From the IMG/VR virus record IMGVR_UViG_3300006916_000150, positions 1 to 34,912 of that record: a stretch of DNA of 34,912 nucleotides, one strand, 5' to 3'. This DNA is from a virus. The notes below the pieces were generated by a model that was not told the DNA's origin, searched no databases, and was given only the letters and a program-made list of their open reading frames with translations. Position 1 is the first letter of the stretch; each line of letters opens with the position of its first letter. A program made the translations under genes and the position numbers. This document shows, piece after piece, positions 408 through 28,709 of the stretch.

Positions 408-724
408 TTGCGGCTCATCCACGCCGATACGCCCATGTAGGCTCCGATCACGCCTGCCATAGAGATATAGAACAGTCCCATCAAATCTGAGAGCGCCGAA
501 ACCCTGCTCTCGCTGATCGCTGGAGACATGATCAGGGCAGTAGATCCAATAATCGACGCCATTGCTCCAACAGCCATTCGACGCTGGGCTTCGCTTTTCT
601 CTTCAGCCAATTCCAAGTCCAGCATAGTGCGTCCACGATCAATCTCTTCATCACTAACCACGCCATCATGGTCCAAGTCAAAATCTTCATATCGACTCCT
701 GTCTTGCAATCGTTTCGTACTCAT
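404..724 (-). CDS. EF-hand protein with two membrane helices
   Basis: A 106-residue protein. Residues 14-26 hold a canonical EF-hand loop (DLDHDGVVSDEE: acidic residues at positions 1, 3, 5 and 12, Gly at 6), which should bind calcium. A charged helix follows (about 28-50). Then come two hydrophobic segments, roughly residues 52-70 (GAMASIIGSTALIM) and 82-100 (LMGLFYISMAGVIGAYMGV), both consistent with membrane spans. The ATG at 724-722 overlaps the TGA of the giant upstream gene (ATGA), and a GGAGGG lies about ten bases before it. Proteins of this architecture recur in marine phages as hypothetical proteins. A role in the host membrane, perhaps in lysis or in sensing divalent ions, is only inference. 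Confidence 0.88.
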   Translation of the reverse strand: MSTKRLQDRSRYEDFDLDHDGVVSDEEIDRGRTMLDLELAEEKSEAQRRMAVGAMASIIGSTALIMSPAISESRVSALSDLMGLFYISMAGVIGAYMGVSAWMSRK

Positions 725-3700
725 TCTGTAGACGCCCTCCACCGCTTGTTGTACTCGTCATACAACCGCTCTTCTTGCTCAGCGATACGCTCAATCGCTT
801 CATACCTTTTCAGCGGATCAATAACGTCATTGTTCTCTAGCTTTTTCTTTTCGGATCTAAGTCGGCGCAACGCCTTCTCAATCTTCTGATCGAAAACGGC
901 AAACTGAGGAATGTTGTAGCCACGTTCATCGATCACACCCCTCCTGCCCTCTCTCGTAGTCTGGGACTCAAATGACTTTTCGTGCTGCCGGAAAGCATCT
1001 CGGTTCTCGTAGAAGTCGATTCGATCTGAATACTCGCTAGGCAGAGGCATGAATGTTCGTAGTATCGGGAGGTCTGTACTCCTGAGGTCCGGCTCTTCAG
1101 AGATAAGCTTGGCAATCGTATCGGCGCTGTCATCGAAAAACCTGCCAACACCGCCAAACAAAAACTCAATGACGTGTTGCGCCCTATCAGGGCTAGCTGA
1201 TACACCACCAGTAACATCTTCATTACCGCCCGTGACCTGATTGAGGAAGCGCGTAACAGCGGTGATGTATGTGCTTGTTCCTCGTTTCGTCGGCTCAGAG
1301 GGAGGTATATCAACCAAGAAACTGTTCTGCGGGATAGTGATGTCAGAGCCGAAGAAATTTATGTTACCGAGCTGTTCAGCAAACGCCTCGACAATGTCTG
1401 GTGTTAAACCAATGCCTTTCTGAACAGCCGCCTCGAGGAATCCTGCGTCATCCTTTGCGGCATGAAGCGACAGTGGATTGAAGTGGTGATCGACAGATGA
1501 GGTCAGGTCAACAGCAATCTCTTGGGGCGTCTTAACGCCCATCGCCAGCTCTGCACCGTAACGCCCGATGTTATCGAAGATGCCGTATCCATAAGGCATC
1601 GGTATCGCATACGCCTGCTGCGTCTCAGAGAACGGATTGATCAGGACCATTGAGGTCTTTAGCGCATATTCATTGAAGTCTGCGTACTTCAGCTCACCAT
1701 CATCATCCTCGCCGCCGAAGTCCATGTTCATCAGGGTTCTTGCGAAGCCCCAAGCAACCATCGAGCCTGCGACCAACCTAGCCTTAGTGATCGTTTGCCC
1801 GTCATTCCCAGGTCTCAATATAGCCTTGGCGATGTTGACGTTGCCCTGTACAGCGGCGTTGAAGAACAAATACAGACTATCGATAGCTGAGCTGTACTCG
1901 CCTTTACGGTTGAAGTTAACGGTAAGATCTTTTGCTAGGGTTGCAGCATCTGCTCTTGCGGTCCCAGACTTACGGGCTTCCACATAGGTAGAGAGACGAA
2001 CCGCGTTCTCCATCGTCTGGTTGTAGTCTTCCACCAAGTCGGTCATGTATCTGACTTTCTTACGGAGATCGCCCTGAGTTAGTACCTTCTCGAACCTTCT
2101 GCTCTGCTCGGCAAGACTCTTCGTCATCGAGAGACCAGTTGGCGCTCCATCTTCAACGTACTCTTTAACGTACTGGTCGTATTCTCGATCCCTGTCATTC
2201 GCTCCTTCTTTGCCTCTACGGTTACGCCAGAACGCTTTCAAGGAAGCTTTGTAGCCACCACTGATCTTCCCGATCAGCTCCTGCCCTTGGATACGACCAC
2301 CCACCGTGTCCTGTTCGCTCAAAGCGAAAGCAAGACCGGTTTGGATATCACGCAGCGGGTTGACCAGTCCCCATGAAGGGTTGTAGTTGATCAACATGTT
2401 TCGGCGGAAGTTCTGGAACTTGGTCAGACCGGTCAGGACGGAGTTCATGAAGTCAACATTGTTGTTGAACATCCCAACGCCAGAACTCTGTAGCTGGCGA
2501 TTAAGCTCTCTGTCCTTCACCTCTATGAAGAAGGTCTGACCGCCTCGCTTGACTTGTATGTACTTCAGCAGACCGTCGTCTTTACGGCGTTCGATCTTCA
2601 TACGGGCAAGTGGCATAGACTCCGATGGGTTCTCTGGATCTTGCGGTCTGAACCTGTTGTTCCATACCTGCCAATTACTCTCTGATTCATTCTGCTGTAG
2701 GAGGGCGAGGAGGCGTTGGGCGATGGTATTTCTTTCCGCCCGAATAATTTTTTCTTCAGCGTCCTTGAATGACACCAGAAGAGGGTTAACCGGCAGAGTT
2801 ATCCGCCCCTTCGCCTTGAAGGACTCAGATCCTTTAACGCTGAATCCAGCCGCGCCAACACCGCTTCGCATCTCCATACCCTCTGGGTAGCTCGCAAAGC
2901 CTTTGAGCGGAACATAGAACTGATAGGTATCTTCCCAGTCGGCTCGGGTTTCCTCGTCAAGGAGACCCTTATCCACCATGTTCTGACGCATATCATTCAG
3001 CATCGAATAAACGCGCTCAGCAACAGACTCGAGCACGTCAGTCCTACCCTCGCTTTCAGCGATATCCAGAACGGACTGGGCATCCGCGTTAGTCATACCA
3101 GACCCAGTCTCTTGGTATTTGAGCGGTGCCTCTTCAAGTTTTGCTAGCTTGCGCTCGAGAGCGCCGGTTGGCTCATCAGCGTCTGTGGCTTGCTCGATCT
3201 GGTTCTGAAGTGACTCTATCTGAGCGGATCTCTGCTCACGCTCTTTCCGGGCAATGACCGCGTTGCGCTCTGGGGCATGCTTAGCAAGCAGGTAAAGACC
3301 AACCTGATCCATCTCAAGACCGGCAGCTTTGATCTCCTCACCAATGGTTTCAACATACTCGACCTCGAAATCTTCGAGTTGCTTCTGGGCTTTTGAGTGC
3401 ATCAGATTTTCGGCGTCATAAGCGCTAATCTCTGATGGCAGTCGATCCATACCTAAGCGGTTGGCTATCTCGTCCTCTACCTGCTTGAGGCGCTCGAGGC
3501 GATCTACGACCTTCTGGCGCACATTCTGAGTTTTGGTTTTGTATCGGTTAGCCAAGGAAACGTCAGCAGTAACGTCATCCAGAAGCTTGAAGGGAGCTAT
3601 CTTTTTCTCTTCGTCGTCGTAGAGCATGAAGTCCACGGCACCATCAACCTCGTTGACATAACGACCCAGCGCCGATTTAGTGCCTTGAGAAACCTCGTAT

Positions 3701-6700
3701 GCGTCTAGCCCCTCATCGAATATTGTGATCAGTAAGTCATCGATCCGGTCAAACCCCAAGTAGTCATCACGCTCGAGGGCGCGAATCAGGTTACGGGAGA
3801 CTGGGGATAGAGACTCTAGATCGGTTTGATCTATCTCGAATACGAATTCAGGGAATCCTGCTTCGCTGATTTCATCAGCTAACTTGTTGCGGGTCTCCAC
3901 GAATCGGGATGCCTGCGAGAATGCAGGGTCCATGATCGCATCAAAGTCGTCCGCCTCTTGGGCGATCTGAGCATCTAGCTCTCCCTGTCGGGAGCCATCG
4001 GTGTCGCTGTCTTGAACAACTTCTTCAAAACTGCGTTCGACTTCAGTCGCTTCTCTTTCGGCGTAAGACTCGAGGAGCTTGTCGAGGTTGTCTCGGTTGA
4101 CGCCTTCGGCTTCATACCACGGGAATCCTTTGTCATATTCGCTTACCTTAAATCCTTTGGGCAGGATACCACTCTTCGCCTTCCTGATCTCTTTAATGAA
4201 ATCCGCGAATCCGGTCTTGGTCAGGCGATAAACCTTACCGGTTGAGTCAGGGTACAAGAAGTACTGCTCGCCTTTAGGATCTCGCGCATAGATCGCTCCG
4301 TATCGGAGCATGTTCTGCTTACCCTCTGGAGCGCCCAAATACGCATAGGGAGATTCGTCTCCTCGAACATCATTAACAATGCCCTGCATCGTTGGATGGG
4401 CAACAACCTGACCTGAGTTTAGAACCCAGCTCTCCCAGTGATACCGCCCCACGGACGCCTCATCAGGTCTGCCGATAGCCGTGTACAGGTCTTGTATCCT
4501 GCTTGATAACGCCGCCTCTAAGGCTTCGTACCTAGCCAGTCCATGAAGTCCGTTGAAGTTATCGGCAATGTCATCGTAGATCAGTTTGCCGTAACGACCT
4601 GCATCCCACATGGTGTTCAACTGGATACGATCCAAGATCACCACGTCATCCCTGCCGGTCATTAACAACAAGAAAGAGAAAACCTTATTATCAATGCCGA
4701 TGTTGTTCGCCATGCCTTGGAATTGGCGACGAACTTCCGCAGAAGATATTGATCTATCGGCAATCAGGTCATGCAATTTTTGCAGCTTCGTAACGCCGCT
4801 CTCATCCATCTCGGACATCTTTTGCAAGAACCGACCAAAATCGTTTGCATTGCTGGTCCCTGCTCGCCCGAAAGATCCAGCGGTAATCGCATCTGGAACA
4901 AACGCCTTCCAGTCGGCTACGTCTGAGTCGGTGAACTCGCCCATCAAAGCCTTATCTGCAAAGTCTTCAAAGGTACTTCTGTTTTGACCTTGCGCCGCGA
5001 ACACCATGTCCACGAACCCTGCTTCTTGGGCGCTGGCAGTCAGCATTCGAGACATCATTCCCCACAGCATAAGCTTCGCCGTTACATCGGGAGTAACTAC
5101 GCCCTGCTCGTATAGCTCGCCTAACTCTTTTGCTGTGTTTAGACCTGCACGAGCCGCCTCTAACTGCTCACCGCTAAGCTTGCTGTGAACGCTCGCCCAC
5201 TCCTCGGGATTGTTGTACAGCTTGATTAGACCGTGAGGCGGTCTGAGGGTTTCATTGCTGCCGGTGAGATCTCTCTCGAATCTCAGCCATGATGCCGGTG
5301 AGTCTAGGGCGCTTTGATGGCGTGAAGATAATTCTCTTAGAGCAGGAAGTTGCTTGTCCGCATTCTTGGGACCAATGACCTTGGTGATCGCAGACTTGCC
5401 GCGAACCTTGCCTCTAGATTTTTGGTAAAGATACTGCTTCTCCTCGACTATCGCATCGAAGTCGTCAGCTACTTCAGAAAGCCGTCCAGACTCGTCCCCT
5501 GAAGGTTCTGTGAGCGCGTCTCCCAGTCCTTCACCGGCTTGTTGTCCTTGATCGCCTGCGCCGCCTGCGCTTCCAGCTCGTCCATCGTCAGGAACTTGTA
5601 TGCCTCCGGGGCTGGTAGGTGCCCGAACTTCGCCTGATACGCCTGTACGTTGACCAGCTTGTTCGGTTTCTTGAATTGTCTGGTTTGCATTGCTGCCTCT
5701 ATCCCTACGTTCTTGGATGATCTCCTCGACAGGGCGAGGGTCTCTCTGGATGTCGCGCATCAGTTTATACGCTTTCGGAGCTGCTTGCTGTAACAGCTCT
5801 GGATTCGATATGTATGTCGCACCTAGTTGCGCGAAGACTTCCCGCCTCATGGTCAAAGCCACGCTATCGAGGTCGCCCTTGCTCGAATCCTCCAAGGATT
5901 GCAGGTATGTGAACGGGTAGTTAAATACCTCACCCAGCTCGGTGCCTGAATCCCATTGGTCGAACAACTCCGATACAGCATCACCCATATTCAGCGTGAA
6001 AGCATCTTCGGAATCCCTGCTAACACGGAAGCTTAAACTGGGCAGGTACTCTGAGTACTTCTTCTTATCGTCTTGGGCATGCCACATCTCGTGCGCCAAG
6101 ATCGTAATAAGCTTTCTTGCCTCAACATCGTTCGTTGCCGCTTCATTAAGAAAGTTTTCATTGAGACCGAGCGAACCCGTGTTGGTGAAGTTGATTGCTT
6201 TGACGCTCATAGGCGCAGACACAGCAGCAGGAGTGAAGCTGTACAGTCCGCTCATTTGATCTTGGATAACGTCTGCTGGCATACCTCTTTCAAAGATGTC
6301 TGCCATCGCACTCATAACCATCCTGATTTGAGGCGACTGATCGAGAACATCGTTGATTGAAGTATCGGGCGATACAAAGGTATTCAGTAATGGCTGTAAC
6401 TCAGTCACTCTTCCGCCAACCGTCTTACCTCTAGGCGCTTGCCCCTTACCGCTCAACTGACGAATCATCTCGCCCAGGGTAGGAATCTTTTGAGTGATGA
6501 TGGTGTCATCGTTTGCGGGTTGAGTGGATTCCCCGCCGATATTTTTGTTCAGCTCAGCTATACGACCAACTAAATCCTTGCCATCTCCCGAGCGATCAAC
6601 AAATGTTTCACCGGCTACCCTAAAACGAGTGGCAGCAGGCTCTTGGGACGGAGCCATTCGATCAGGGGTGTTTGCTAAATCACCCGTGACAAACTGCTCG

Positions 6701-9252
6701 ATATCCGCCGCCAAGCCTTCGTCTGGAACCACCATCGCGTCCATCTGATCGCCATCACCATCAAACTCTGCTTGGCGAATCTGTTTTAGCTTTGATATTG
6801 CTTCTTTTCGGTTTTCGCCTAGATACCCTTCAAGCTGTTCAGCATCAGCGTCGTACCAACTACTATTTTGTTCATCGTAGTAAATCGTTCTGACATCACC
6901 GTCTGGATATGTCAGGACGTACTCACCATTGAAATCGAAATCAGGATCGCGCTTGAGCTTTGGATCTGCATCCGGCTGGGATACTCGACGGCCCTGATTT
7001 GCCTCCGAGACCTCTGTCTCAGCCTGTGCTGGCGCTGATTGTGGTGCGGTTGATTCAGCATCTGTTATATCAGTATCGCCGTACTGGCTGTTCATCCATT
7101 CAATGGCTTTCTTCTTGCCCATGCTGGCTGGCAAATAGAACTCTTCCCCGTCCTCGAGGATTATCTGATAAGCCTTGCCGGTATTGACCTTTCCGGTCTT
7201 GGCGCTGATGTAATCAGTAGTAACAGTCTTGCGAATAGTGCCTTTGATCGGAGGATTCAGTACTGGTGCCTGCCTGATCGCAGCCAGCTCCGCTTGCATG
7301 CGCTGGAATCGTGGCGAGTCTTCGCCCTTACCAAAAGCTGAGACATCTTCCCTGAGAATGGCGTCTTGGATAACCGGACTCGTCAGGTCAGCATCTTGAT
7401 ACCTCTGGAAGCTTGGAATCCGGCGATAGTTTTCGCCGTATGCTCTCTTAAAGAGTTGCTCGTTCTCGGTTTCCGCAACGTCAGCCTCTGTCTGTGTAAA
7501 CGCGGGGCGTCTGCCGGTCTGCTCCACTTGCCCACGAAGATCCTCAAGAGATTGATCTGTAGTTACAGTCTGATCTTCCGTCTCGATGGTTGTGGTTGCT
7601 GCTGGCTCATCCGGCGTTACGAACCGATACCGACCATCTCCAATTGATACAACCTGACCGCTCGCCGCCAGATCGGTTATTGCTTCAACAGTTGGGTTGT
7701 ATCCAGCACGAATATCTTTCTGTATATCAGAGACGCTGAACTCACCGAATAGCTCGGCTGACATACGCGCACGGGTAGCTAGGTCCAGTTCTTCAGGCTG
7801 GACTATCTCAAGCTCTGGAGGTTGGGGTGCAGGAGCTGGTTCGTCTGCATCGTCTACCGCTGTGTACACGATCTTGCCGCCAGAGACTTCAGACTTGATC
7901 CTTCCCTGATCAATCAGAATGTCTAGGATCTCCTGCTGCTGCTCACCAGTTAGACCGTTGTCTTTCGCCAGCTCGTCGCGATTAACGCCAGCGGATATCT
8001 CTATGGTTTCAAGAGTGTCTGTCAGTCTTTGAGGATCTGCCGATGTTGGGTTTTCCGGCTCAATATCTAAAGGAGCTTCTGCCGCAGCGATAACTGCTTT
8101 TTTAGCCTCTAGCTGTCGCTGCTGTCTCTCTTCTTCATGCTTTACATCAAGGACCGGGGTGCCGTCTTCTGAATCAATAGACTTAAATCCGCCCATGGTA
8201 GAGCCGAGAGCGCCGCCAGCAATCGAACCCGCAGTCGCCGCATGCAAATAGCTTTGAACCGCCTCTTCGTTAAACAGATAGCCCGTGAACAAAGCCTGAT
8301 CTTGCTCAGACAAATTCTCTTTAGCCCACATTACGGAGGCGCGACTAATAAACTCCTGCCCAGCCTCCGTTAGACCCTCTGCACCGGCAGACTTAAATCC
8401 CTCCTCGAGCATATTGCCGATACGCTTACGCCCAGCGTTCGTGAGAGCCTCGTCGGCAATGTATTCCTTTAGATCGGTCAATGCTTTTGGATTGTCCGGG
8501 AAAGCGCCTCGGACTGCCCTGAACGGCGCACCAACCCGGTCCAGTGCGCCCGAGAACAAGCCAGCGACCAATGCTGTACCCGGATCTTCCAGACCCGTTT
8601 CCTCGTAGATGCGAGCGAAACTCTCTCCGAAAGCCATCCCTGAAGAGGCTACGCCTGACCCCGTGGCAACCCCCATCTTTGCGTATTTATTGGCAACCTG
8701 CTCTTTGTATGCGTTGGTTATTTTGTTCTTAACAGTCTCATCAATTATCCCTCGGGCGGACTCTTCCATTTTCTCTTTGGCTATACGCTCAATTGCTTCT
8801 TTGCCAGCCGTCTTCGCTACAGTCTTCGCAACCGCACCGCCTATGCCGCCACCGACAGCCGTTGTAGCCAGCGATGGGATGGCATTGCCCAAGGTATAAA
8901 AGGCAAAGTTGCCGAAGTCAGAAAGACTATCGAAAGCGTCATCAAAGTTACTGATGGGAGCGTTCTGTGACGCCTCCTCCATCTGCTGACGGTAGTAGTC
9001 GAAGCCAGCCTGCTTCATTTCTTCATCACCGATACTAGAGCCGATACCAGCCTGCACAGCTCCAGCTAGGGCTTGCTGCTGATCTATGCCCGAAGAAAAT
9101 CCAGCGGCTAGCTGATCAAATGGGGAAAATTCTGGACCCTCAGCTTCTTCGTCTTGAGCAGCCCTAGACCTTCCGCCTACTCGAGACAGCTCGTCTTCTT
9201 CAAGAGAACGGGTGTATCCATTTCTGATTTGCTCAAGAGAAACTAATGCCAC
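721..9252 (-). CDS. Giant polyvalent phage protein (2843 residues) with HExxH metallopeptidase motif and LPD38-like region
   Basis: The largest gene in the window, placed after the internal-protein genes and probably ejected with the DNA. Visible regions in order: Gly/Ala-rich hydrophobic segments (about 117-155 and 338-354) that could enter membranes; two winged-helix-like modules (about 405-468 and 489-547); long acidic, low-complexity linkers; a zincin signature HEMWH at 1054-1058 (LITILAHEMWHAQDD), as in metallopeptidase domains of polyvalent proteins; a globular region about 1270-1650; a coiled coil near 2000-2045; a segment with YVPLKG and RAERNTIAQRLLALL near 2100-2200; and an LPD38-like part with NYNPSWGLVNPLRDIQTG near 2285. 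It ends in a charged helical tail. Polyvalent proteins (described by Iyer and colleagues) enter the host with DNA and carry several effector activities. The GTG start overlaps the upstream TAG (TAGTG). The polyvalent class is well supported; the individual activities are inferred. Confidence 0.9.
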   Translation of the reverse strand: MALVSLEQIRNGYTRSLEEDELSRVGGRSRAAQDEEAEGPEFSPFDQLAAGFSSGIDQQQALAGAVQAGIGSSIGDEEMKQAGFDYYRQQMEEASQNAPISNFDDAFDSLSDFGNFAFYTLGNAIPSLATTAVGGGIGGAVAKTVAKTAGKEAIERIAKEKMEESARGIIDETVKNKITNAYKEQVANKYAKMGVATGSGVASSGMAFGESFARIYEETGLEDPGTALVAGLFSGALDRVGAPFRAVRGAFPDNPKALTDLKEYIADEALTNAGRKRIGNMLEEGFKSAGAEGLTEAGQEFISRASVMWAKENLSEQDQALFTGYLFNEEAVQSYLHAATAGSIAGGALGSTMGGFKSIDSEDGTPVLDVKHEEERQQRQLEAKKAVIAAAEAPLDIEPENPTSADPQRLTDTLETIEISAGVNRDELAKDNGLTGEQQQEILDILIDQGRIKSEVSGGKIVYTAVDDADEPAPAPQPPELEIVQPEELDLATRARMSAELFGEFSVSDIQKDIRAGYNPTVEAITDLAASGQVVSIGDGRYRFVTPDEPAATTTIETEDQTVTTDQSLEDLRGQVEQTGRRPAFTQTEADVAETENEQLFKRAYGENYRRIPSFQRYQDADLTSPVIQDAILREDVSAFGKGEDSPRFQRMQAELAAIRQAPVLNPPIKGTIRKTVTTDYISAKTGKVNTGKAYQIILEDGEEFYLPASMGKKKAIEWMNSQYGDTDITDAESTAPQSAPAQAETEVSEANQGRRVSQPDADPKLKRDPDFDFNGEYVLTYPDGDVRTIYYDEQNSSWYDADAEQLEGYLGENRKEAISKLKQIRQAEFDGDGDQMDAMVVPDEGLAADIEQFVTGDLANTPDRMAPSQEPAATRFRVAGETFVDRSGDGKDLVGRIAELNKNIGGESTQPANDDTIITQKIPTLGEMIRQLSGKGQAPRGKTVGGRVTELQPLLNTFVSPDTSINDVLDQSPQIRMVMSAMADIFERGMPADVIQDQMSGLYSFTPAAVSAPMSVKAINFTNTGSLGLNENFLNEAATNDVEARKLITILAHEMWHAQDDKKKYSEYLPSLSFRVSRDSEDAFTLNMGDAVSELFDQWDSGTELGEVFNYPFTYLQSLEDSSKGDLDSVALTMRREVFAQLGATYISNPELLQQAAPKAYKLMRDIQRDPRPVEEIIQERRDRGSNANQTIQETEQAGQRTGVSGEVRAPTSPGGIQVPDDGRAGSAGGAGDQGQQAGEGLGDALTEPSGDESGRLSEVADDFDAIVEEKQYLYQKSRGKVRGKSAITKVIGPKNADKQLPALRELSSRHQSALDSPASWLRFERDLTGSNETLRPPHGLIKLYNNPEEWASVHSKLSGEQLEAARAGLNTAKELGELYEQGVVTPDVTAKLMLWGMMSRMLTASAQEAGFVDMVFAAQGQNRSTFEDFADKALMGEFTDSDVADWKAFVPDAITAGSFGRAGTSNANDFGRFLQKMSEMDESGVTKLQKLHDLIADRSISSAEVRRQFQGMANNIGIDNKVFSFLLLMTGRDDVVILDRIQLNTMWDAGRYGKLIYDDIADNFNGLHGLARYEALEAALSSRIQDLYTAIGRPDEASVGRYHWESWVLNSGQVVAHPTMQGIVNDVRGDESPYAYLGAPEGKQNMLRYGAIYARDPKGEQYFLYPDSTGKVYRLTKTGFADFIKEIRKAKSGILPKGFKVSEYDKGFPWYEAEGVNRDNLDKLLESYAEREATEVERSFEEVVQDSDTDGSRQGELDAQIAQEADDFDAIMDPAFSQASRFVETRNKLADEISEAGFPEFVFEIDQTDLESLSPVSRNLIRALERDDYLGFDRIDDLLITIFDEGLDAYEVSQGTKSALGRYVNEVDGAVDFMLYDDEEKKIAPFKLLDDVTADVSLANRYKTKTQNVRQKVVDRLERLKQVEDEIANRLGMDRLPSEISAYDAENLMHSKAQKQLEDFEVEYVETIGEEIKAAGLEMDQVGLYLLAKHAPERNAVIARKEREQRSAQIESLQNQIEQATDADEPTGALERKLAKLEEAPLKYQETGSGMTNADAQSVLDIAESEGRTDVLESVAERVYSMLNDMRQNMVDKGLLDEETRADWEDTYQFYVPLKGFASYPEGMEMRSGVGAAGFSVKGSESFKAKGRITLPVNPLLVSFKDAEEKIIRAERNTIAQRLLALLQQNESESNWQVWNNRFRPQDPENPSESMPLARMKIERRKDDGLLKYIQVKRGGQTFFIEVKDRELNRQLQSSGVGMFNNNVDFMNSVLTGLTKFQNFRRNMLINYNPSWGLVNPLRDIQTGLAFALSEQDTVGGRIQGQELIGKISGGYKASLKAFWRNRRGKEGANDRDREYDQYVKEYVEDGAPTGLSMTKSLAEQSRRFEKVLTQGDLRKKVRYMTDLVEDYNQTMENAVRLSTYVEARKSGTARADAATLAKDLTVNFNRKGEYSSAIDSLYLFFNAAVQGNVNIAKAILRPGNDGQTITKARLVAGSMVAWGFARTLMNMDFGGEDDDGELKYADFNEYALKTSMVLINPFSETQQAYAIPMPYGYGIFDNIGRYGAELAMGVKTPQEIAVDLTSSVDHHFNPLSLHAAKDDAGFLEAAVQKGIGLTPDIVEAFAEQLGNINFFGSDITIPQNSFLVDIPPSEPTKRGTSTYITAVTRFLNQVTGGNEDVTGGVSASPDRAQHVIEFLFGGVGRFFDDSADTIAKLISEEPDLRSTDLPILRTFMPLPSEYSDRIDFYENRDAFRQHEKSFESQTTREGRRGVIDERGYNIPQFAVFDQKIEKALRRLRSEKKKLENNDVIDPLKRYEAIERIAEQEERLYDEYNKRWRASTE

Positions 9253-10889
9253 TAGATGCCTGCCCCATAGCTATTGAGAACTTGGATAAGCATTTCTTCA
9301 TCGCTTATGTCGCTACCGTCCGGGTTGCCAGAACTATCTACGCCTTGACCCTTCCCAATACCCTTCTTCAGGCGGGGCTGTCCGCCGTCTGCTTCAAACA
9401 AAAAAGCAATCCGGGAAACCATCTTCGCTTCACTTACGTCAGCGACCACGCCTTGCTTAAAGTTTGCAAAAACGTCCAGCTCCCCAATGGTTTGCGCCTT
9501 AACCATTCCCCGTCTAGTTTTGTTCTGACCCACATTTGTGCCAATCACAGACCCAGGCAATGGGAACTTAGCAAGCTCTATCACGTTCTCTTTCAGCCAT
9601 GTATCTGCCTCTCTGCCCCACGTCGTTTGTTCTCGCTTACCCAGCAGGTTGTCTTTTACCCGAGCTTCTAAAACGCCGATGTTGTCTTTGTACATTGACT
9701 GCAAGGTCTCTCCGTCTTCTAGGAGAAACTGCATATCCAGCATTTGGTCTTGCCCGTTGGCATAGGCTTTCTCTACTAACGCCATCTTTGCGTTAACGCG
9801 CTCATCTAAGGTCTTCTGACCAGAGTCGCCCGGACCGCCAAATGCGTCTTGAATCAAAGCCCTGTCAACCATGTCAACGAATCTAGGATCTTGTCTAAGC
9901 GAGTTTGCCATGTAGGCATGTCCAGCCATCGCCGGAATCGCCTCATTTGCCATGTCGATCTCAACCGCAAGACCGTTTACGTCTCGCGCTTGGGTCAAGC
10001 TGGGGAAGTAAGGATGCAGATCGCCGTCAGGTGTTTGGGTCCATATCACCATGTCCCCAGACACGGCTGGCTGACCTTGCGAGCCTGCTCCAATATCAGC
10101 CGAATACAGACCAGACCCGACAACTGTCCGACCATCGGTCTTCAAGTAATCTGGAGCCTGAGGGAAGTTTTTTACGTCTCTGCCTATGTACGCAGCGCTA
10201 TCTAGATCGAAAGCTCTTCCAAACGCATCCAGTTGGCTTCTATTAAGCTGATCAAACTGTCCTCGCGAAAGATTCGCAAACACATCACCGATGTGCCTCT
10301 GAGCATCCTGCTCGCTCTGGCTCATGATTCTTTTTACGTTAAAGGTCGTGGGGTTTTGAATGTTTTGCTGAACCAAAGCGGCGAACTCGTCCTGTGTTTC
10401 CTGATCCGGGAGACCTTCCATCTGGGAGATATCGAATAATCTAGATATTTCTAAACCGCCCTGAAGCCGCGCCTCCTCGCGGGTTGTCTTTGCAGTATTA
10501 ATCGCTATCTGGTCTGTCTGAGCTTCTCTGTACAGCCTGTTTGCCTCTTGCTCCGGGGTCTCACCTCTATCGTTAAGGGAATCCACTGCCCTCTTCTCTA
10601 CTGAAGCGGCAGTATTGGCTGTAGTACCTGCTGTCTGCGCTCTAAGCAGGGCTGTTTGAGAATTTAGTTCAGAGATATCATCCAAGCGTTTATTACGCAA
10701 AATATCGGCGTCTAGCCGCTCTCGCTTGAGACCACGATCTAAACGAGCGCCCTCGAGCGTTTCGTCTCGGTAAGCTTTTAGGTTATCGATTTGAGTTTGG
10801 TCTAGATCTCTTCGGCGCTTATCGTCATAGAACTTATTGACCGCACCAAAACCTGCTAACGCACCTTCTGCAAAACCTTGAAGAGCCAT
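9252..10889 (-). CDS. Internal virion (ejection) protein, putative
   Basis: A 545-residue protein. It starts with a Gly/Ala-rich hydrophobic stretch (residues 1-18, ALQGFAEGALAGFGAV), then a long, strongly charged helical region rich in Arg, Asp and Leu (about 20-150) that looks like a coiled coil. The rest is mixed alpha/beta and ends with a Gly/Asp-rich segment. Its position just before the giant polyvalent gene and after three small Gly/Ala-rich proteins matches the internal core proteins of podoviruses (functional counterparts of T7 gp15/gp16, not clear homologues). The ATG at 10889 follows AGGTGA at a usable distance. Its TAG overlaps the GTG of the next gene. I do not recognise a catalytic motif. 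The role is inferred from context. Confidence 0.75.
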   Translation of the reverse strand: MALQGFAEGALAGFGAVNKFYDDKRRRDLDQTQIDNLKAYRDETLEGARLDRGLKRERLDADILRNKRLDDISELNSQTALLRAQTAGTTANTAASVEKRAVDSLNDRGETPEQEANRLYREAQTDQIAINTAKTTREEARLQGGLEISRLFDISQMEGLPDQETQDEFAALVQQNIQNPTTFNVKRIMSQSEQDAQRHIGDVFANLSRGQFDQLNRSQLDAFGRAFDLDSAAYIGRDVKNFPQAPDYLKTDGRTVVGSGLYSADIGAGSQGQPAVSGDMVIWTQTPDGDLHPYFPSLTQARDVNGLAVEIDMANEAIPAMAGHAYMANSLRQDPRFVDMVDRALIQDAFGGPGDSGQKTLDERVNAKMALVEKAYANGQDQMLDMQFLLEDGETLQSMYKDNIGVLEARVKDNLLGKREQTTWGREADTWLKENVIELAKFPLPGSVIGTNVGQNKTRRGMVKAQTIGELDVFANFKQGVVADVSEAKMVSRIAFLFEADGGQPRLKKGIGKGQGVDSSGNPDGSDISDEEMLIQVLNSYGAGI

Positions 10890-12515: not shown

Positions 12516-12980
12516 TCAAACCTCTTTCTTCATTACCGATCCGACTTCCCTGTAACCGATACGCTTGATCAACTGCTCGTATCCGGGTCCAGCGATACCA
12601 GATGTGATACCGATACAAATCTCATGAGCGCCCTTATCGACCGCCCATGACTCGAACTCTTTCAGCATCTTGATGGTGGGTTTGATGATTCCCGCTCGTT
12701 TTTGCGGGAGGAAAACCATCACCAAGTCCTGTGCAATATGCTTAGTGGAAAAGAAGTATTCAGTGATGTGACCAAGGAAGAAGCCGACGATCTGTCCCTC
12801 GCTTTCGACCACTCTCATGAAGGTGTTGGAATCTGGATATGTGCCCTCGACCACTAGCCTCAGCGACTTCTCGTCTGACCAGCCGCATGTGGCGTAAAGA
12901 CTGTTCTCCTGAAACCAGCGACCTATGAGATTTATCTGGTCGAAATCCTCGATACGAGGCTTCCGCACGATAAATGCCAT
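12516..12980 (-). CDS. GNAT-family N-acetyltransferase
   Basis: A 154-residue GNAT protein. The fold is visible as an N-terminal beta-alpha unit (FIVRKPRIEDFDQINLIG), the central strand pair with GQIVGFFLGHI, and the acetyl-CoA-binding region with VMVFLPQKRAGIIKPTIKML, where QKRAGI is a variant of the Q/R-x-x-G-x-G/A loop. The final strand and the C-terminal helix (GPGYEQLIKRIGYREVG) are also present. The donor is presumably acetyl-CoA; the acceptor is unknown. It is the first gene after the 158-base intergenic region and sits directly before the internal virion genes, a position where GNATs are often seen in podoviruses. ATG at 12980 is chosen, though the adjacent GTG at 12983 is possible. 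It might modify a virion or host protein. Confidence 0.85.
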   Translation of the reverse strand: MAFIVRKPRIEDFDQINLIGRWFQENSLYATCGWSDEKSLRLVVEGTYPDSNTFMRVVESEGQIVGFFLGHITEYFFSTKHIAQDLVMVFLPQKRAGIIKPTIKMLKEFESWAVDKGAHEICIGITSGIAGPGYEQLIKRIGYREVGSVMKKEV

Positions 12981-13018
12981 CACTGCCTTTCCAGCAATCT
13001 TCCTTGAGGTTATTGAAC

Positions 13019-16600: not shown

Positions 16601-17601
16601 TCTGCGTTCAGCGTGTTGATTGAGGATTGGTTGGATGCAATACGAGGGTCTTGCAGGCTTACCCACGCAGTGCCGCTATAGTAGTAAACAGCCATGTTGT
16701 CATCGCTGTCATACCACCGGCTGTTGGTGGCAATCGTCCCGGTTGGCGCTGACGTTTGAACGTACACGGTTCCAACATTCGCTGTGAGATCGGTGATGCT
16801 GGACTGAAGGTTGCTTACGTTGCCGGTCAGGGTCGTCAGTGAGCTGTTGATCGAGCTAACCGAAGTATTCAACGAAGTAACCGCAGTGTCCGTAGACGTA
16901 ATTCTGGTTAAAAGGTTATCTGCCGAATACGTCGAGGTGTAACCAGTGTAATTTTCTATGTCGTCCAGCAACGATTCAATCGTGTCAACCTTGCCAATCG
17001 GAGTTGAAAGCTCCGTTGCCAGCTCTGAGTTAGTGATCTGATTAGCTAACAGATTGAGCACCAAAGCCACATCAGTAGCCGTAGTTCCAGAGGTTCCGGT
17101 ACTTGAATTGAATGGTCCTGAAATCCCCGCCTGATTGACAGCGCGAACCCAGTAATAGCGCGTGAGACCACCACCAACCGGATCTGCATAAACCCCAGTG
17201 AATCCAGAAACCTGAGCAACCATCGTCGCCGCGCTGATATCGTCGGATGTGTGTCTTAACACTTCAACGTAGGAGTGACCCTCGTATAGGGACAGATCCC
17301 AGGTCAGTATGATGTTCTGGAAAGCACCAGACGCCTGAAGGTTCGTTGGCGCTGGAGGGATATCTAGGCTTGGTATCTCGTCGCGAGACGGCACAAGATC
17401 CCGCGTATCGCCGAACAAACTTACCCCTCGCGCAAGGGTGACAATGCCTGTATCCAGCAGATCCTTGAACGTAACCGCACGATCAAGGGCGTCTCCCCGA
17501 TGACCAAGAAGTACGTCGAGGTTTTCCTTTAAGCTGTCGCCGAATCGCCTGTCTTGAGCCGACCAGCTCGGAGGATCTGTGAGATTGCTTTTACGCGGCA
17601 C
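13597..17601 (-). CDS. Lambda J-like tail tip/central fibre protein with tandem repeats
   Basis: A 1334-residue fibre. Visible parts: an N-terminal region (1-75) that may dock to the tail; a fibronectin type III domain (about 82-172, with NIILTWDLS and YYWVRAVNQAGISGPF); helical linkers; eight tandem repeats of 43-48 residues (about 325-676); a carbohydrate-binding-like beta-sandwich (about 739-892); a domain like the C-terminal part of lambda J (about 1048-1162, with EFIVNADRFAIMRG and FIKNGTISNAKIADAAIDNA); and a unique beta-rich end that may bind the receptor. The GTG at 17601 follows GGGAG closely and overlaps the upstream stop by 11 bases. An in-frame GTG at 17628 is an alternative and would give 1343 residues. 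It is unusual in a short-tailed phage, since J belongs to siphoviruses. The exact start is uncertain. Confidence 0.85.
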   Translation of the reverse strand: MPRKSNLTDPPSWSAQDRRFGDSLKENLDVLLGHRGDALDRAVTFKDLLDTGIVTLARGVSLFGDTRDLVPSRDEIPSLDIPPAPTNLQASGAFQNIILTWDLSLYEGHSYVEVLRHTSDDISAATMVAQVSGFTGVYADPVGGGLTRYYWVRAVNQAGISGPFNSSTGTSGTTATDVALVLNLLANQITNSELATELSTPIGKVDTIESLLDDIENYTGYTSTYSADNLLTRITSTDTAVTSLNTSVSSINSSLTTLTGNVSNLQSSITDLTANVGTVYVQTSAPTGTIATNSRWYDSDDNMAVYYYSGTAWVSLQDPRIASNQSSINTLNAEVFNTDGSSKLASASAFNVLDTTVTNLNGTVTTVSSDVTSLKNVVFDSNGISQIATTSALSNLTSQVTSNDGDISALVTDVTALDAEVFNSDRTARLATGSALSTLQTTVNTQGNSISTSQSDITALKGVVYDNSGAVKLATSAALTALTSTVTSQGNSISSTQSDVTALNGIVFDSNGISQLATSAALAGLTSDVTAIYDGNNSSIVKTIQTDVTELNASVFDSGGTLQLATATALSGLTNDVEAIYDGSNPSVVKTIQGDVTDLETEVFNSDNTSRLATASALSSLTTEVEAIYDGSNPSVVKSISEDVTSLKGAVFDANGNVELASASAVSLLQTEVWGSGVTPGGATSSRIDSLTSTINDPTSGLGATSSAVDALNTEVFPNGNTSASSIDALESTVQNANISLPFNAWNLNGHSIQTISNGKVGNEVLRLTGNAGNYPNQGNYIPIDPTKKYQVRFWARPSSNASGLLYFSLRQFLNNTGSAGPNNGGRSPYKPSGFNRANHNSTAGTTNDWYEYVYIWDSSDWQTGVKYFQPEFLDNYSGQAGYWEIQGFVINEVTELEELSSTTATALSALNTEVYGSGGATSSRIDTLNSAIYNGDGTFKFGSATAVSLLNTEIFPNGTSSSSRIDELDNILFDGNGNAVVSATNLSSMKNQILDSGGNQTASATQMSQLAASYTNPTTGQQNTTLQTALESSASNVNGLRSRYTVKIDTNGAVAGFGLASTDNGSGNITSEFIVNADRFAIMRGGSDTTTASVPFSVQTSSTTIGGESVPAGVYMDSAFIKNGTISNAKIADAAIDNAKIANLDAGKINAGTISTSRLNIDGSTITSNNGVLKLGAASVDTLFIAGQAVTIMETKETTSVINIAGNSGKVTVLSDSISLAAVDSNSAVRISGALSISNESTSPITVFIEVFDGTASNATRLSAAYATIPGSTYTSPIYIHGRSLVPVSALDENPPNGSSTYVLKVQEAYNFTANTPFIKVQSAIMTLQGALR
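15570..16630 (-). repeat. Eight tandem 43-48-codon repeats inside the J-like fibre gene
   Basis: Each unit follows the pattern S/T-D-V-T-x-L-x-x-x-V-F-D/N-S-x-G/N-x-x-x-L-A-T-x-S/A-A-L-x-x-L-T-x-x-V. The last units carry an added AIYDGSNPSVVKTI insert. Units are clearly related at protein level and diverged in DNA, so this is an old expansion that probably builds a long trimeric shaft. Boundaries are approximate. Confidence 0.75.
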
Positions 17602-19240
17602 CAACCTCTCCCGCTGATTCGTAGACACAGACCTCGTTCACCGATACAGATCCCTCGATCTGAATCTCGAACTCATTGGCTTTGTAACCACCGGGGAGTC
17701 GGAACAACGAACTGTTGGTTACCGACTGAGTGTGTTTGAGGTTCCCATCCGCATAGAGCTTGAGCGTGGGGGCTGGAGAGTACGAATCGCACTCTAGTTT
17801 TGCGACTCCGGGATTGATCGGTCTCTGGGTGTAAAACTTTTTGCTCTTCCAAGTGAACGATAGGTTTGACCCGCCAGCAAATTTTACGACAGAGCCACCG
17901 ACAACCAAGTACAACTCATCATTCGCCAGATCGTTGAAGCCTGCTGTAGCGTAGAAATCCAGTTTGACGTATGAGTTCTTGCCGCCTCGAGGATCAAAGA
18001 TGAATCCCTTTGATTCGCTGCCGTTGGAATAAAACCCGAGGTAATAACCCTCCCAGTGAAAGCCGATCACGCTGGATGGAGACAGATCCTGCCATTGGTC
18101 TCGGGAGAGAATGCTCTCCGTGGCTACTGACAGACCACTATCTCGAGCAGCAACCAATCCATCGGGGCTGGCGTACATGACGTATTCGCCCATGTCTACG
18201 ACGCTTCGCTTGCTTACGCAGGACAACGTACTGTCGATCTCGATCATCGACATGCTTGAAGGATCTAAGCCTTGAATAAGTGCTGGCTTTTCTTTCGTGA
18301 GCACCAGCAAGCCCGTGTTCAGAGGCGCTAATGCAACCACATCGCTCTTGATCGTCAGCTTGTAAGCATCGGGAAATGCATGGGGTTGAAACGCCTCTGA
18401 GAAGCAAACGGTTTGACCGGAGAATCCTGCTAAAAAGCCGTTAGGCATACTGACAAGACCAAGCAGAGGTCCGTCCTTGTGGTCCGAAGAAACCTCGTCT
18501 GGCGGCGCTATCCAGCCTCCTGACGGTATAGCCTCGCCCAAGTTGGCGTCTGTCACAGTGTCGTTGAAAGTGTCTGTTGCGAGAGCAACGTCCGCGACAA
18601 ATCGAAACGTCCCATTGGGGTCAGTCCGGTACAAACGCTTCTTCAGTAGGTTGTGGTTCCCACTGGGGTTCGCAGGGAAGTTAACCGTAACTGATTGATC
18701 AGAGTAAACGTCTACAATCTGGCTGACCAACGAGGTTGAGGGGGCACCTTCTTCGCCGTAGTAGCTGACGTAGGTGAAGACATAAGCTCGTGATATGGGC
18801 GTCTCAGTATCCGTTTTCGTGGTCGTGCCAACCAGGGTAACCGAGTCGAAAGACGCGGGATCAGGAATGCCAAGCTTGTAGTATGTCCCGTTACCCACTG
18901 ATGTGGCGCTGCTCATCCGAGGGTAGCCGGTTGCACTACCCATACCCGATACATAGATACGCTCGTGTTGATCCTCCGCAATCGGACTTCTGACAATGTC
19001 TAGATCCTCATTGCTGCCAATCCAGATGCTGTCGCTGTACTTGAAGAGCGTCTTAGTCAGCGCAGACACGGAGTAGCTCGCGACAGGCGTAATAGATGCC
19101 GAGCTGTTTCCTGCCCACGGATCGAGGCGACCAGAGTCCAAGCGGGTGTTGATCGCTTCTTGCGCCATGTCTTCAGGCAATAACCGTGCGCTCACGCGAG
19201 GAGCTTTGCCAGAAAATGTTTGGAGCTTGAATCCAGTCAC
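17591..19240 (-). CDS. Beta-propeller-type tail protein (nozzle/stabilisation protein), putative
   Basis: A 549-residue, mostly beta-strand protein. The N-terminus (FKLQTFSGKAPRVSARLLPE, then AQEAINTRLDSGRLDPW) is the recognisable start of a tail protein found in many phages, in which short strands build propeller blades. Repeating blade-like units include LLGLVSMPNGFLAGFSGQTV, DVVALAPLNTGLLVLTKEKP and DMGEYVMYASPDGLVAA. In short-tailed phages such proteins form the tail nozzle or tube end, a role played by gp12 in T7; homology to gp12 is not claimed. The GTG at 19240 has AGGAG seven bases upstream and overlaps the holin stop (GTGA). It lies between the holin and the J-like fibre. Confidence 0.78.
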   Translation of the reverse strand: MTGFKLQTFSGKAPRVSARLLPEDMAQEAINTRLDSGRLDPWAGNSSASITPVASYSVSALTKTLFKYSDSIWIGSNEDLDIVRSPIAEDQHERIYVSGMGSATGYPRMSSATSVGNGTYYKLGIPDPASFDSVTLVGTTTKTDTETPISRAYVFTYVSYYGEEGAPSTSLVSQIVDVYSDQSVTVNFPANPSGNHNLLKKRLYRTDPNGTFRFVADVALATDTFNDTVTDANLGEAIPSGGWIAPPDEVSSDHKDGPLLGLVSMPNGFLAGFSGQTVCFSEAFQPHAFPDAYKLTIKSDVVALAPLNTGLLVLTKEKPALIQGLDPSSMSMIEIDSTLSCVSKRSVVDMGEYVMYASPDGLVAARDSGLSVATESILSRDQWQDLSPSSVIGFHWEGYYLGFYSNGSESKGFIFDPRGGKNSYVKLDFYATAGFNDLANDELYLVVGGSVVKFAGGSNLSFTWKSKKFYTQRPINPGVAKLECDSYSPAPTLKLYADGNLKHTQSVTNSSLFRLPGGYKANEFEIQIEGSVSVNEVCVYESAGEVGAA

Positions 19241-27768: not shown

Positions 27769-28677
27769 TTAACGGCGGATCGATCCCTCAGCCTGCGCCC
27801 GTAAGATATCGACTTTATGCTTCTCGAATTCAGCGAGAGGCATGTTTACGATGTCTTGGACCGTCCAAGATTTCTTTCCGCCTGTAACATTGGCTTTTCG
27901 CGCTTTGGGCAATTTCGGTTCTGCAACCTCCTTCGCTCGCGCTAAAGCCGACTCTTGCGGCGTTTCAGGTTTGACTCCCATGTCTGCCTTGAACCGATCC
28001 AGAACAAAGATCACATCATTTGACGAACCAGCATCTACCCACTCATGGACTTGACTGTCCTGAGCGTCTAACCACAACGCCCAATCCGATGTCTGCGTGA
28101 CTTCGTCAACGTCAGAATGGACTGCGCGAATACGGTCAAAGTGCTCTCGCACTGCTTCCTCTTGCTTCGCCTCAAATGCTCTTCGCTCTTGACCTTGGGT
28201 CAGAGCAGCCTGTTCATCCAACCTTGCTCGCATCTGATCCAGCTCATCCAAGAGAGGTCCAGCAACATCGGGATATTCTTCCCTTACCTGTTGCAGCTTC
28301 TCTGTGTTTCGCTGCTCATCTGCAAGCTGACCCTTTAACTGAGTTACGGAGTTTACTAAGTCAGATACTTGCTTCCTTAGTTCCGCCGCTTCCTGAGTCG
28401 CTTTGGTCATTTTCGCCTGAGCGCCTTTCATGGCTCGTTCAGCTTTTTCAATTCGCTGTTCTGCTTCAGAGTCGTCGCCGCCGACCAACTCTTCTTCAGG
28501 AACCTCTTCCGCTATAGCCTCTGCCGTGTCCTCTGGTTCTGAGGGGGCTTCTTGAAACACCTCTTCCTGCTGCTCTTCAGTGTCCTCTGCCGAGGGTTGA
28601 GTCGCTGCGCTCTGATACTGTTCCATCAACTCTTTAGCTTCTGCCTGCAATCGCTCCGGGTCATTTCTACTAGCCAT
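27769..28677 (-). CDS. Capsid scaffolding protein, putative
   Basis: A 302-residue, very acidic protein. Residues 20-75 are rich in Glu, Gln, Asp, Pro and Ala (EDTEEQQEEVFQEAPSEPED). A long coiled coil follows (about 80-190: KAERAMKGAQAKMTKATQEA and beyond). The C-terminal part is basic and ends in a helix (LPKARKANVTGGKKSW and the LAEFEKHKVDILRAQ segment), as in scaffolds that bind coat through a charged C-terminus. The position directly before the coat gene supports the call. ATG at 28677 has GAGGA about five bases upstream, better than the in-frame TTG at 28680. Confidence 0.85.
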   Translation of the reverse strand: MASRNDPERLQAEAKELMEQYQSAATQPSAEDTEEQQEEVFQEAPSEPEDTAEAIAEEVPEEELVGGDDSEAEQRIEKAERAMKGAQAKMTKATQEAAELRKQVSDLVNSVTQLKGQLADEQRNTEKLQQVREEYPDVAGPLLDELDQMRARLDEQAALTQGQERRAFEAKQEEAVREHFDRIRAVHSDVDEVTQTSDWALWLDAQDSQVHEWVDAGSSNDVIFVLDRFKADMGVKPETPQESALARAKEVAEPKLPKARKANVTGGKKSWTVQDIVNMPLAEFEKHKVDILRAQAEGSIRR

Positions 28678-28709
28678 CAATTCCTCACGAGTCCGCTACG
28701 GGATGTTCG

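Follow-up and report, generated by a model that had tools for sequence, protein, structure and literature searches.

The window, the whole 34,912-nucleotide stretch of viral DNA analysed here, encodes a giant polyvalent-type protein of 2843 residues that carries a zincin metallopeptidase domain, a predicted DNA-glycosylase-like cassette and a conserved C-terminal core with the LPD38 domain. We lean slightly towards the following account of its role. The protein would be of the phage type of polyvalent proteins, packaged in the virion, probably via its conserved C-terminal (LPD38) half, and would enter the cell together with the DNA. Residues 940-1190 would be an M34/M90-like gluzincin with ligands H1054, H1058 and E1138 and with E1055 as base, whose most likely job is to cleave the giant protein itself, releasing parts of it during packaging or after entry. 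Residues 1348-1622 would be an OGG2-type HhH-GPD glycosylase/AP lyase using K1523 and D1541 to excise, early in infection, a base that is damaged or modified. Its likeliest use would be base-excision repair of oxidation damage acquired by the genome while outside the cell; the main alternative is that it attacks modified bases of the host's DNA. The zincin half belongs to a known kind, since polyvalent proteins with zincins, and LPD38 as a phage-type domain, were reported in 2017 (PMC5512222). The predicted glycosylase-like cassette is the addition, met in no paper of the open-access literature searched, and is supported by its modelled fold, the alignment of its active site and its gene neighbourhood. 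The features are listed below; K1523, D1541 and the MjOgg positions 129 and 147 are numbered by counting along the profile alignment.

721..9252, minus strand: giant polyvalent-type gene, 2843 aa (ORF list and translation)
8203..9252, minus strand: N-terminal conserved module, residues 1-350 (present in 33 of 140 other loci)
5683..6435, minus strand: zincin domain, residues 940-1190 (conservation, Pfam, AlphaFold model, VIA-align)
6079..6093, minus strand: HEMWH, residues 1054-1058 (motif and alignment)
5839..5841, minus strand: E1138, predicted third zinc ligand, ExFAQxG motif (invariant in 31/31; on a separate helix in the model)
3943..5460, minus strand: conserved, patchily distributed cassette, residues 1265-1770 (profile scans, alignment)
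4387..5211, minus strand: predicted OGG2-like HhH-GPD DNA glycosylase core, residues 1348-1622 (model, VIA-align, profiles)
4684..4686, minus strand: K1523, aligned with MjOgg residue 129, which is K in 3fhf and Q in 3knt (invariant in 59/59; alignments)
4630..4632, minus strand: D1541, aligned with MjOgg D147 (invariant in 59/59; alignments)
763..3540, minus strand: C-terminal conserved core, residues 1905-2830 (best stretches of PHROGs 14770, 616 and 10691)
1060..1626, minus strand: LPD38, residues 2543-2731 (Pfam)
9252..10889, minus strand: upstream gene, 545 aa, without a convincing family match
17591..19240, minus strand: internal virion protein (PHROG 511), upstream in the array

The giant ORF covers 24% of the 34,912 bases, in line with the quarter of the window given to it by the sequence-only reading. 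Its GTG start overlaps by one base the TAG stop of ORF 9252-10889, which codes for the 545-aa product. Further upstream, on the same strand, come four smaller genes, one of them for an acetyltransferase, and then genes for tail-fibre assembly, for a tail fibre of 1343 aa and for an internal virion protein, the last matching PHROG 511 of that name with E 8.1e-141. This array had been called an ejection-protein operon. That description is partly supported: the array includes the internal virion protein gene, and the genes in between are for tail fibre, tail-fibre assembly, acetyltransferase and unknown products. NCBIfam gave nothing useful for the giant protein or for the 545-aa product. A second IMG/VR contig (L002, the same as L008 and L144) carries a copy of the giant gene, 100% identical over the three parts matched. 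The acetyltransferase gene (12516-12983) sits between the tail-fibre genes and the giant gene, and an acetyltransferase occupies a comparable place in a Comamonas plasmid (L007) and in phage JC1 (gp63; PMC9144972). Elsewhere in the window, a 303-aa ORF at 27769-28680 weakly resembles segments of defence proteins in PADLOC (LmuB, 6e-4), which may reflect coiled-coil composition; PADLOC gave no match for the zincin or the cassette.

Pfam bears out the LPD38-like C-terminal region noticed earlier, since LPD38 (PF18857) is found at residues 2543-2731 with E 8.2e-22 and 78.7 bits, above the cut-off of 27. The three PHROG families that match the protein (14770, 616 and 10691) are all of unknown function and have their best stretches at the C-terminus; one of the three had a second stretch, at a position that was not given. 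In tblastn the whole protein matched 127 of 50,697 phage records, the 40 matches listed all falling in the C-terminal third at 30% identity, and the C-terminal part alone matched 131 records of the same collection. Relatives on contigs were collected with an alignment of four C-terminal regions (A1), taking 80 of 461 related viral-contig stretches and all 56 genome-contig relatives. The resulting 140 loci exclude the window's own copies (L001, L002 and L008), include five from phage or plasmid records and are partly redundant, several being near copies of one another. Giant LPD38 genes occur also on two plasmid records, one of Comamonas (L007), which has a tail-fibre assembly gene as well, and one of Endozoicomonas (L006) with mostly unnamed genes. 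In the giant protein of Vibrio phage 1.205.O (L003:7308-16697), residues ~1822-1957 weakly resemble methyltransferases without reaching the Pfam cut-offs; other giants hold other domains at this place. Two candidate features of the window protein were discarded. A match of residues 2754-2818 to 6z1p_AR (E 0.0012) looks like coiled-coil similarity, and a transmembrane nature of the N-terminal module finds no support, no 19-residue window of the whole protein exceeding a mean hydropathy of 1.3.

The combination of several unlike domains (zincin, glycosylase-like cassette, LPD38) in one phage polypeptide of 2843 aa places the protein among those of polyvalent type. With the phage-type proteins of this kind it shares giant multidomain size, the zincin metallopeptidase (MPTase) and LPD38; the glycosylase-like cassette is what it adds, the word 'glycosylase' being absent from the main text of the paper that describes them (PMC5512222). 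According to that paper, zincin MPTases are the commonest domain of polyvalent proteins and LPD38 is confined to those of phage type (Iyer et al. 2017, PMC5512222). The giant protein is probably packed in the virion and delivered with the viral DNA. Packaging via the shared C-terminal core is supported indirectly by gp69 of phage JC1, a 4515-aa protein detected in CsCl-purified virions by 51 unique peptides at 15.6% coverage (PMC9144972), which is linked to the window protein through the C-terminal part of its relatives only. Gp69 is reported to be closest to Bcep22 gp75 and is called DarB-like, as are the matching genes of DC1, BcepMigl and BcepIL02, and like the giant gene its gene lies near the end of the virion gene array (PMC9144972). 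Phages DC1, BcepMigl, BcepIL02 and CSP3 share the giant's C-terminal core at 24-25% identity (tblastn). The giant protein of CSP3 (L004, first bases cut) differs in having neither this zincin nor the cassette by profile.

HEMWH, at residues 1054-1058 as first noticed, is the sole HExxH of the protein. Since an HExxH arises in only 173 of 20,000 shuffles of the giant sequence, the motif is unlikely to be there by chance. The zincin domain is found in 35 of the 140 loci with phmmer (query, residues 920-1190), and the profile adds L084 to give 36. In an alignment of 31 sequences, which leaves out the window's copies and five identical rows, H1054, E1055, H1058, D1061, E1138 and the FxYP and FAQxG residues are all invariant (31/31). 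The AlphaFold model of residues 940-1190, built from 30 rows, has a pLDDT of 91.4 and a pTM of 0.89; in the numbering of the modelled slice, HEMWH lies within helix 103-125, and helix 189-210 holds E1138. VIA-align relates this model to the catalytic domain of lethal factor (Z 9.5-10.1) and to PPEP peptidases (Z 8.9-9.6; PPEP-1, rmsd 2.8 over 144 residues). Its topmost rows (Z up to 11.4) fall mostly on the receptor-binding domains at the N-termini of lethal factor, edema factor and certhrax. These are relatives of the peptidase domain that lack activity, and therefore the fold match alone does not show a peptidase. Foldseek E-values are weak, the best row being a putative metal-dependent hydrolase (E 0.033).

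Pfam searches at E up to 1 detected the lethal-factor family ATLF in 20 of 30 zincin members (best 3.4e-6) and M90 in seven of 30 (best 7.3e-5). Membership in Peptidase_M90 was rejected, the window protein scoring 17.7 bits as a whole and 22.9 as a slice against a cut-off of 26.2. The window's zincin slice gave no match in a sequence search of the PDB, and the zincin profile (A2) hit nothing there but spurious entries (tagged SUMO, spike proteins, a kinase; E from 0.036 upwards). In the phage records, tblastn matched neither the window slice, with E allowed up to 10, nor the zincin of L050, with E up to 1e-3. With the M34 (lethal factor, PPEP) and M90 (MtfA) peptidases the domain has in common the predicted fold and an HExxH followed by a downstream Glu on a separate helix. 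It differs from them in the 80 residues that separate HExxH from E1138, with the invariant FxYP block in between. As a test against itself, the sequence-only reading had named a structure prediction placing HEMWH outside a zincin fold with no third metal ligand. The structural half of that test is passed because the fold and a third ligand are both present (pLDDT 91, lethal-factor and PPEP matches, E1138 invariant in 31/31). On the strength of the model, residues 940-1190 are a true zincin-fold domain with E1138 as its predicted third ligand.

The phage MPTase clade is characterised by an Asp three residues after HExxH and by a conserved His at the end of strand 2 (PMC5512222). The Asp is present as D1061 (31/31), and no His counterpart was seen, the HExxH histidines being the only ones to reach 80% among the 31 rows over residues 920-1190. 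Zincin and N-terminal module go together in 31 of the 33 giants with that module; the two others (L052 and L055) have instead an unlike HExxH, reading HEGTH. Unlike HExxH motifs are carried also by many other LPD38 giants without the profile zincin. Two giants (L053:1781-10651 and L048:4175-12715) have two HExxH sites each, of which the second differs (HEWWHALDNYF in L053, HEAMH in L048). A contig binned as Flavobacteriales (L102), perhaps a mis-binned phage contig, encodes a giant whose zincin is 37% identical to that of the window.

Across the giants, 59 of the 79 that are complete, distinct and at least 2000 aa long carry an HExxH, against 2.1 expected from shuffles, and those printed have it in several unlike forms, while the other domains vary. 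A motif kept while other domains change is more in keeping with a general role, for instance processing, than with a single target in the host. The zincin is thus more likely to process the giant protein than to cleave a host defence. The sequence-only reading had instead imagined a protease arm entering with the genome to cleave a host defence or surveillance protein. No result here supports that claim, and in view of the spread of HExxH we hold such an effector to be unlikely, even if the predicted active site is complete and some M34 proteases, fold relatives of the zincin, act on host proteins. The literature on polyvalent MPTases names self-processing as well as host targeting among the possible roles and stresses processing (Iyer 2017, PMC5512222).

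C-terminal to the zincin, the sequence-only reading had left residues 1270-1650 and 1650-1980 unnamed as possible further domains. The first corresponds mostly to an OGG2-like DNA glycosylase domain by predicted fold and by its invariant K1523 and D1541. The second dissolves into the tail of the cassette (to ~1770), followed by a linker and by the beginning of the C-terminal core (~1905). The window's own sequence has no Pfam match in the cassette. An alignment of the cassette in thirteen relatives (A3; 65% mean column identity) has as sole match in the PDB the N-glycosylase/DNA lyase 3fhf, at a sub-significant E of 0.31, pairing GIDNK...LDRIQ of the giant protein with GIGYK...IDRHI. A core alignment of the window and 38 relatives after a 90% identity filter (A4) ranks two MjOgg entries first, at E 0.044 and 0.28, likewise sub-significant; at the position aligned with K1523, 3knt has Q and 3fhf has K. 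The top Pfam family for A4 is Ogg-HhH (PF22175), found in four of 39 members at E up to 1 (best 0.0013). A single hhalign comparison of the cassette core with 17 OGG2 sequences yields a probability of 31.7 and E 5e-4, the two controls giving E 0.38 and 0.11.

The AlphaFold model of the cassette, from 14 rows, has a pLDDT of 75.3 and a pTM of 0.77. The top four of 978 chains aligned to it by VIA-align are OGG2 entries, 3n0u at Z 14.9 (rmsd 3.0 over 206 of 208 residues), 3knt at 14.6, 3fhf at 14.6 and 3fhg at 14.3, although a shared arrangement of helices can by itself lift helical models to such Z values. The following rows drop to Z 9.7 (EndoIII-3, ROS1) and continue with other glycosylases. 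Altogether the top 37 rows comprise 29 DNA glycosylases, endonucleases III or ROS1, the glycosylase homologue Mag2, one hypothetical protein (1xg7) and six DUF2419 proteins. Foldseek alone is weak, its best glycosylase row being EndoIII at E 0.76, with none below 0.001. In BFVD the whole cassette matches, at TM 0.77, models of A0A6J5N998 and A0A6J5RZW6, which are uncharacterised metagenomic phage proteins. Residues 1348-1622 thus look like an HhH-GPD DNA glycosylase core in the model, with OGG2 as the closest group by fold.

Conservation was read from 59 distinct sequences of the window and 58 relatives over 400 residues. K1523, D1541, R1542 and Q1544 are invariant in 59/59, as are all fixed letters of a block GRYHWExWVxxSxQxxxH. 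The residue before K1523 is Asn in 59/59, and the hairpin reads GIxNK in 58 sequences and GVxNK in one. MjOgg positions 129 and 147, with which K1523 and D1541 align, we take to be the catalytic Lys/Asp pair. This pairing fits the strictly conserved catalytic Lys and Asp by which a review marks OGG2 (PMC3397491). The same review gives as a further mark the carboxylate of a strictly conserved C-terminal lysine, which tells 8-oxoG from G (PMC3397491). K1523 and D1541 supply the first mark and the domain lacks the second. Since the domain is internal, with a chain that runs on for ~1220 residues, such a sensor is impossible in the uncut protein. We therefore propose that the cassette works like a bifunctional HhH-GPD glycosylase and not as an 8-oxoG glycosylase of OGG2; in this model, its substrate may be another base than 8-oxoG. 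Compared with MjOgg, SsOgg and Tm1821, the cassette shares the predicted fold over 203-209 residues and the aligned Lys and Asp, and differs in its internal location in a giant, in the absence of the C-terminal lysine sensor, in the Asn before the lysine and in the extra conserved C-terminal block.

The last two traits speak for another reading, a glycosylase fold that no longer excises bases and serves as a base-modifying enzyme or a DNA-binding part. We know of no counterpart for the GRYHWExWVxxSxQxxxH block, and the fold list includes the queuine-salvage DUF2419 proteins (Z 8.8-9.5 for the six rows) and 8z2n, a glycinyltransferase of base modification from phage PaMx11 (Z 4.0). These scores stand against 14.9 for OGG2 (9.5 at best for DUF2419 and 4.0 for 8z2n), and both residues aligned with the OGG2 Lys/Asp pair are invariant, so that a non-excising cassette seems to us improbable. 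A base-excising cassette is the reading that we retain.

Slices of the window protein show that residues ~1270-1770 are present in some giants and absent from others. Profile searches place the whole cassette at 16 of the 140 loci and a fragment of it at L022. Among loci with a zincin or a cassette, the five closest C-terminal relatives (60-61%), which represent three distinct ones as L010/L011 and L013/L014 have identical zincins, lack the cassette, and so does L012 (backbone 60%, cut at the 5' end). More distant loci carry it: L047, L050 and L054, with a backbone at 41-44%, have cassettes at 64-66% identity, and L020 and L032, with a backbone at 46%, have cassettes at 56%, below the cassette identity of those three. 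In all 16 loci with both parts, similarity to the window protein is higher for the cassette than for the backbone. This pattern fits transfer of the cassette as a unit; stronger constraint and slow change combined with differential loss may be another account of its patchiness. Being absent from the closest relatives, the cassette appears dispensable for packaging in the family at large. This absence weighs against a purely structural role at entry, in which zincin and cassette would be packaging or structural parts without enzymatic function, and so does the invariance of the active-site residues in zincin (31/31) and cassette (59/59). The MPTase region of the N4 protein, which is packaged unprocessed, is needed for encapsidation (Iyer 2017, PMC5512222) and lends such a role some credit; we nevertheless regard it as very unlikely and keep to enzymatic roles for both domains.

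A scan of viral contigs with A3 gave 154 related stretches, of which the best 80 were kept. For 25 of these 80, counting the window's own copy, the ORF that holds the cassette also matches the C-terminal profile. Another 33 are ORFs 650-939 aa long, including four truncated at a contig end, and the remaining 22 are other large ORFs, 12 with an HExxH unmatched by the zincin profile. Two stand-alone proteins, of 771 aa (L197:7185-9497) and 709 aa (L178:7221-9350), have the cassette at their C-terminus. In L197, a T7-like contig, the gene order is two tail tubular genes, two unknowns, the stand-alone cassette gene, an internal virion protein and a tail fibre, and the cassette gene thus occupies what is presumably the internal-virion-protein place of T7-like phages. 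In L178 the cassette gene is followed by an internal virion protein of the same family, and the neighbours have similar sizes. PHROG has no match for the L197 protein, nor Pfam for the similar L172. Searched by tblastn in the 50,697 phage records, the window cassette gave two rows, at E 3 and 5, taken as chance, and the L197 and L217 cassettes gave none at E up to 1e-3; the L217 cassette gave none in plasmids either.

T4-type pyrimidine-dimer DNA glycosylases have a glycosylase fold other than the HhH-GPD type. They resemble the cassette as phage-encoded base-excision enzymes, and they differ from it in being listed among DNA repair genes and not within a virion protein (PMC7824862). The phage DNA glycosylases found in that source are of the T4 endonuclease V type only (PMC7824862); pyrimidine-dimer glycosylases are listed elsewhere as separate phage genes (PMC11288001, PMC10783043). 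No injected phage glycosylase turned up in the open-access literature searched. With the glycosylase-like half, base excision would join the activities that phages may deliver along with their DNA, and if it acted on the genome as it enters, or on host DNA with modified bases, it would be a new class of injected phage enzyme. Virion genomes are unrepairable until they enter a cell, which makes a travelling repair enzyme a testable idea; acting on host DNA, the enzyme would be a new early weapon. The neighbouring zincin could sometimes free the glycosylase, its cut perhaps creating the C-terminus needed by an OGG2-type pocket. Only tentatively do we extend this to the view that uncultivated phages carry a widespread and mobile glycosylase/lyase in virion-delivered proteins, with excision beginning before phage gene expression.

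Six ORFs of 1243-1465 aa (L215, L216, L218, L220, L221 and L222) have an HExxH, reading HEILH or HEFLH, 177-381 residues before the cassette, and are perhaps another pairing of a zincin with a glycosylase.
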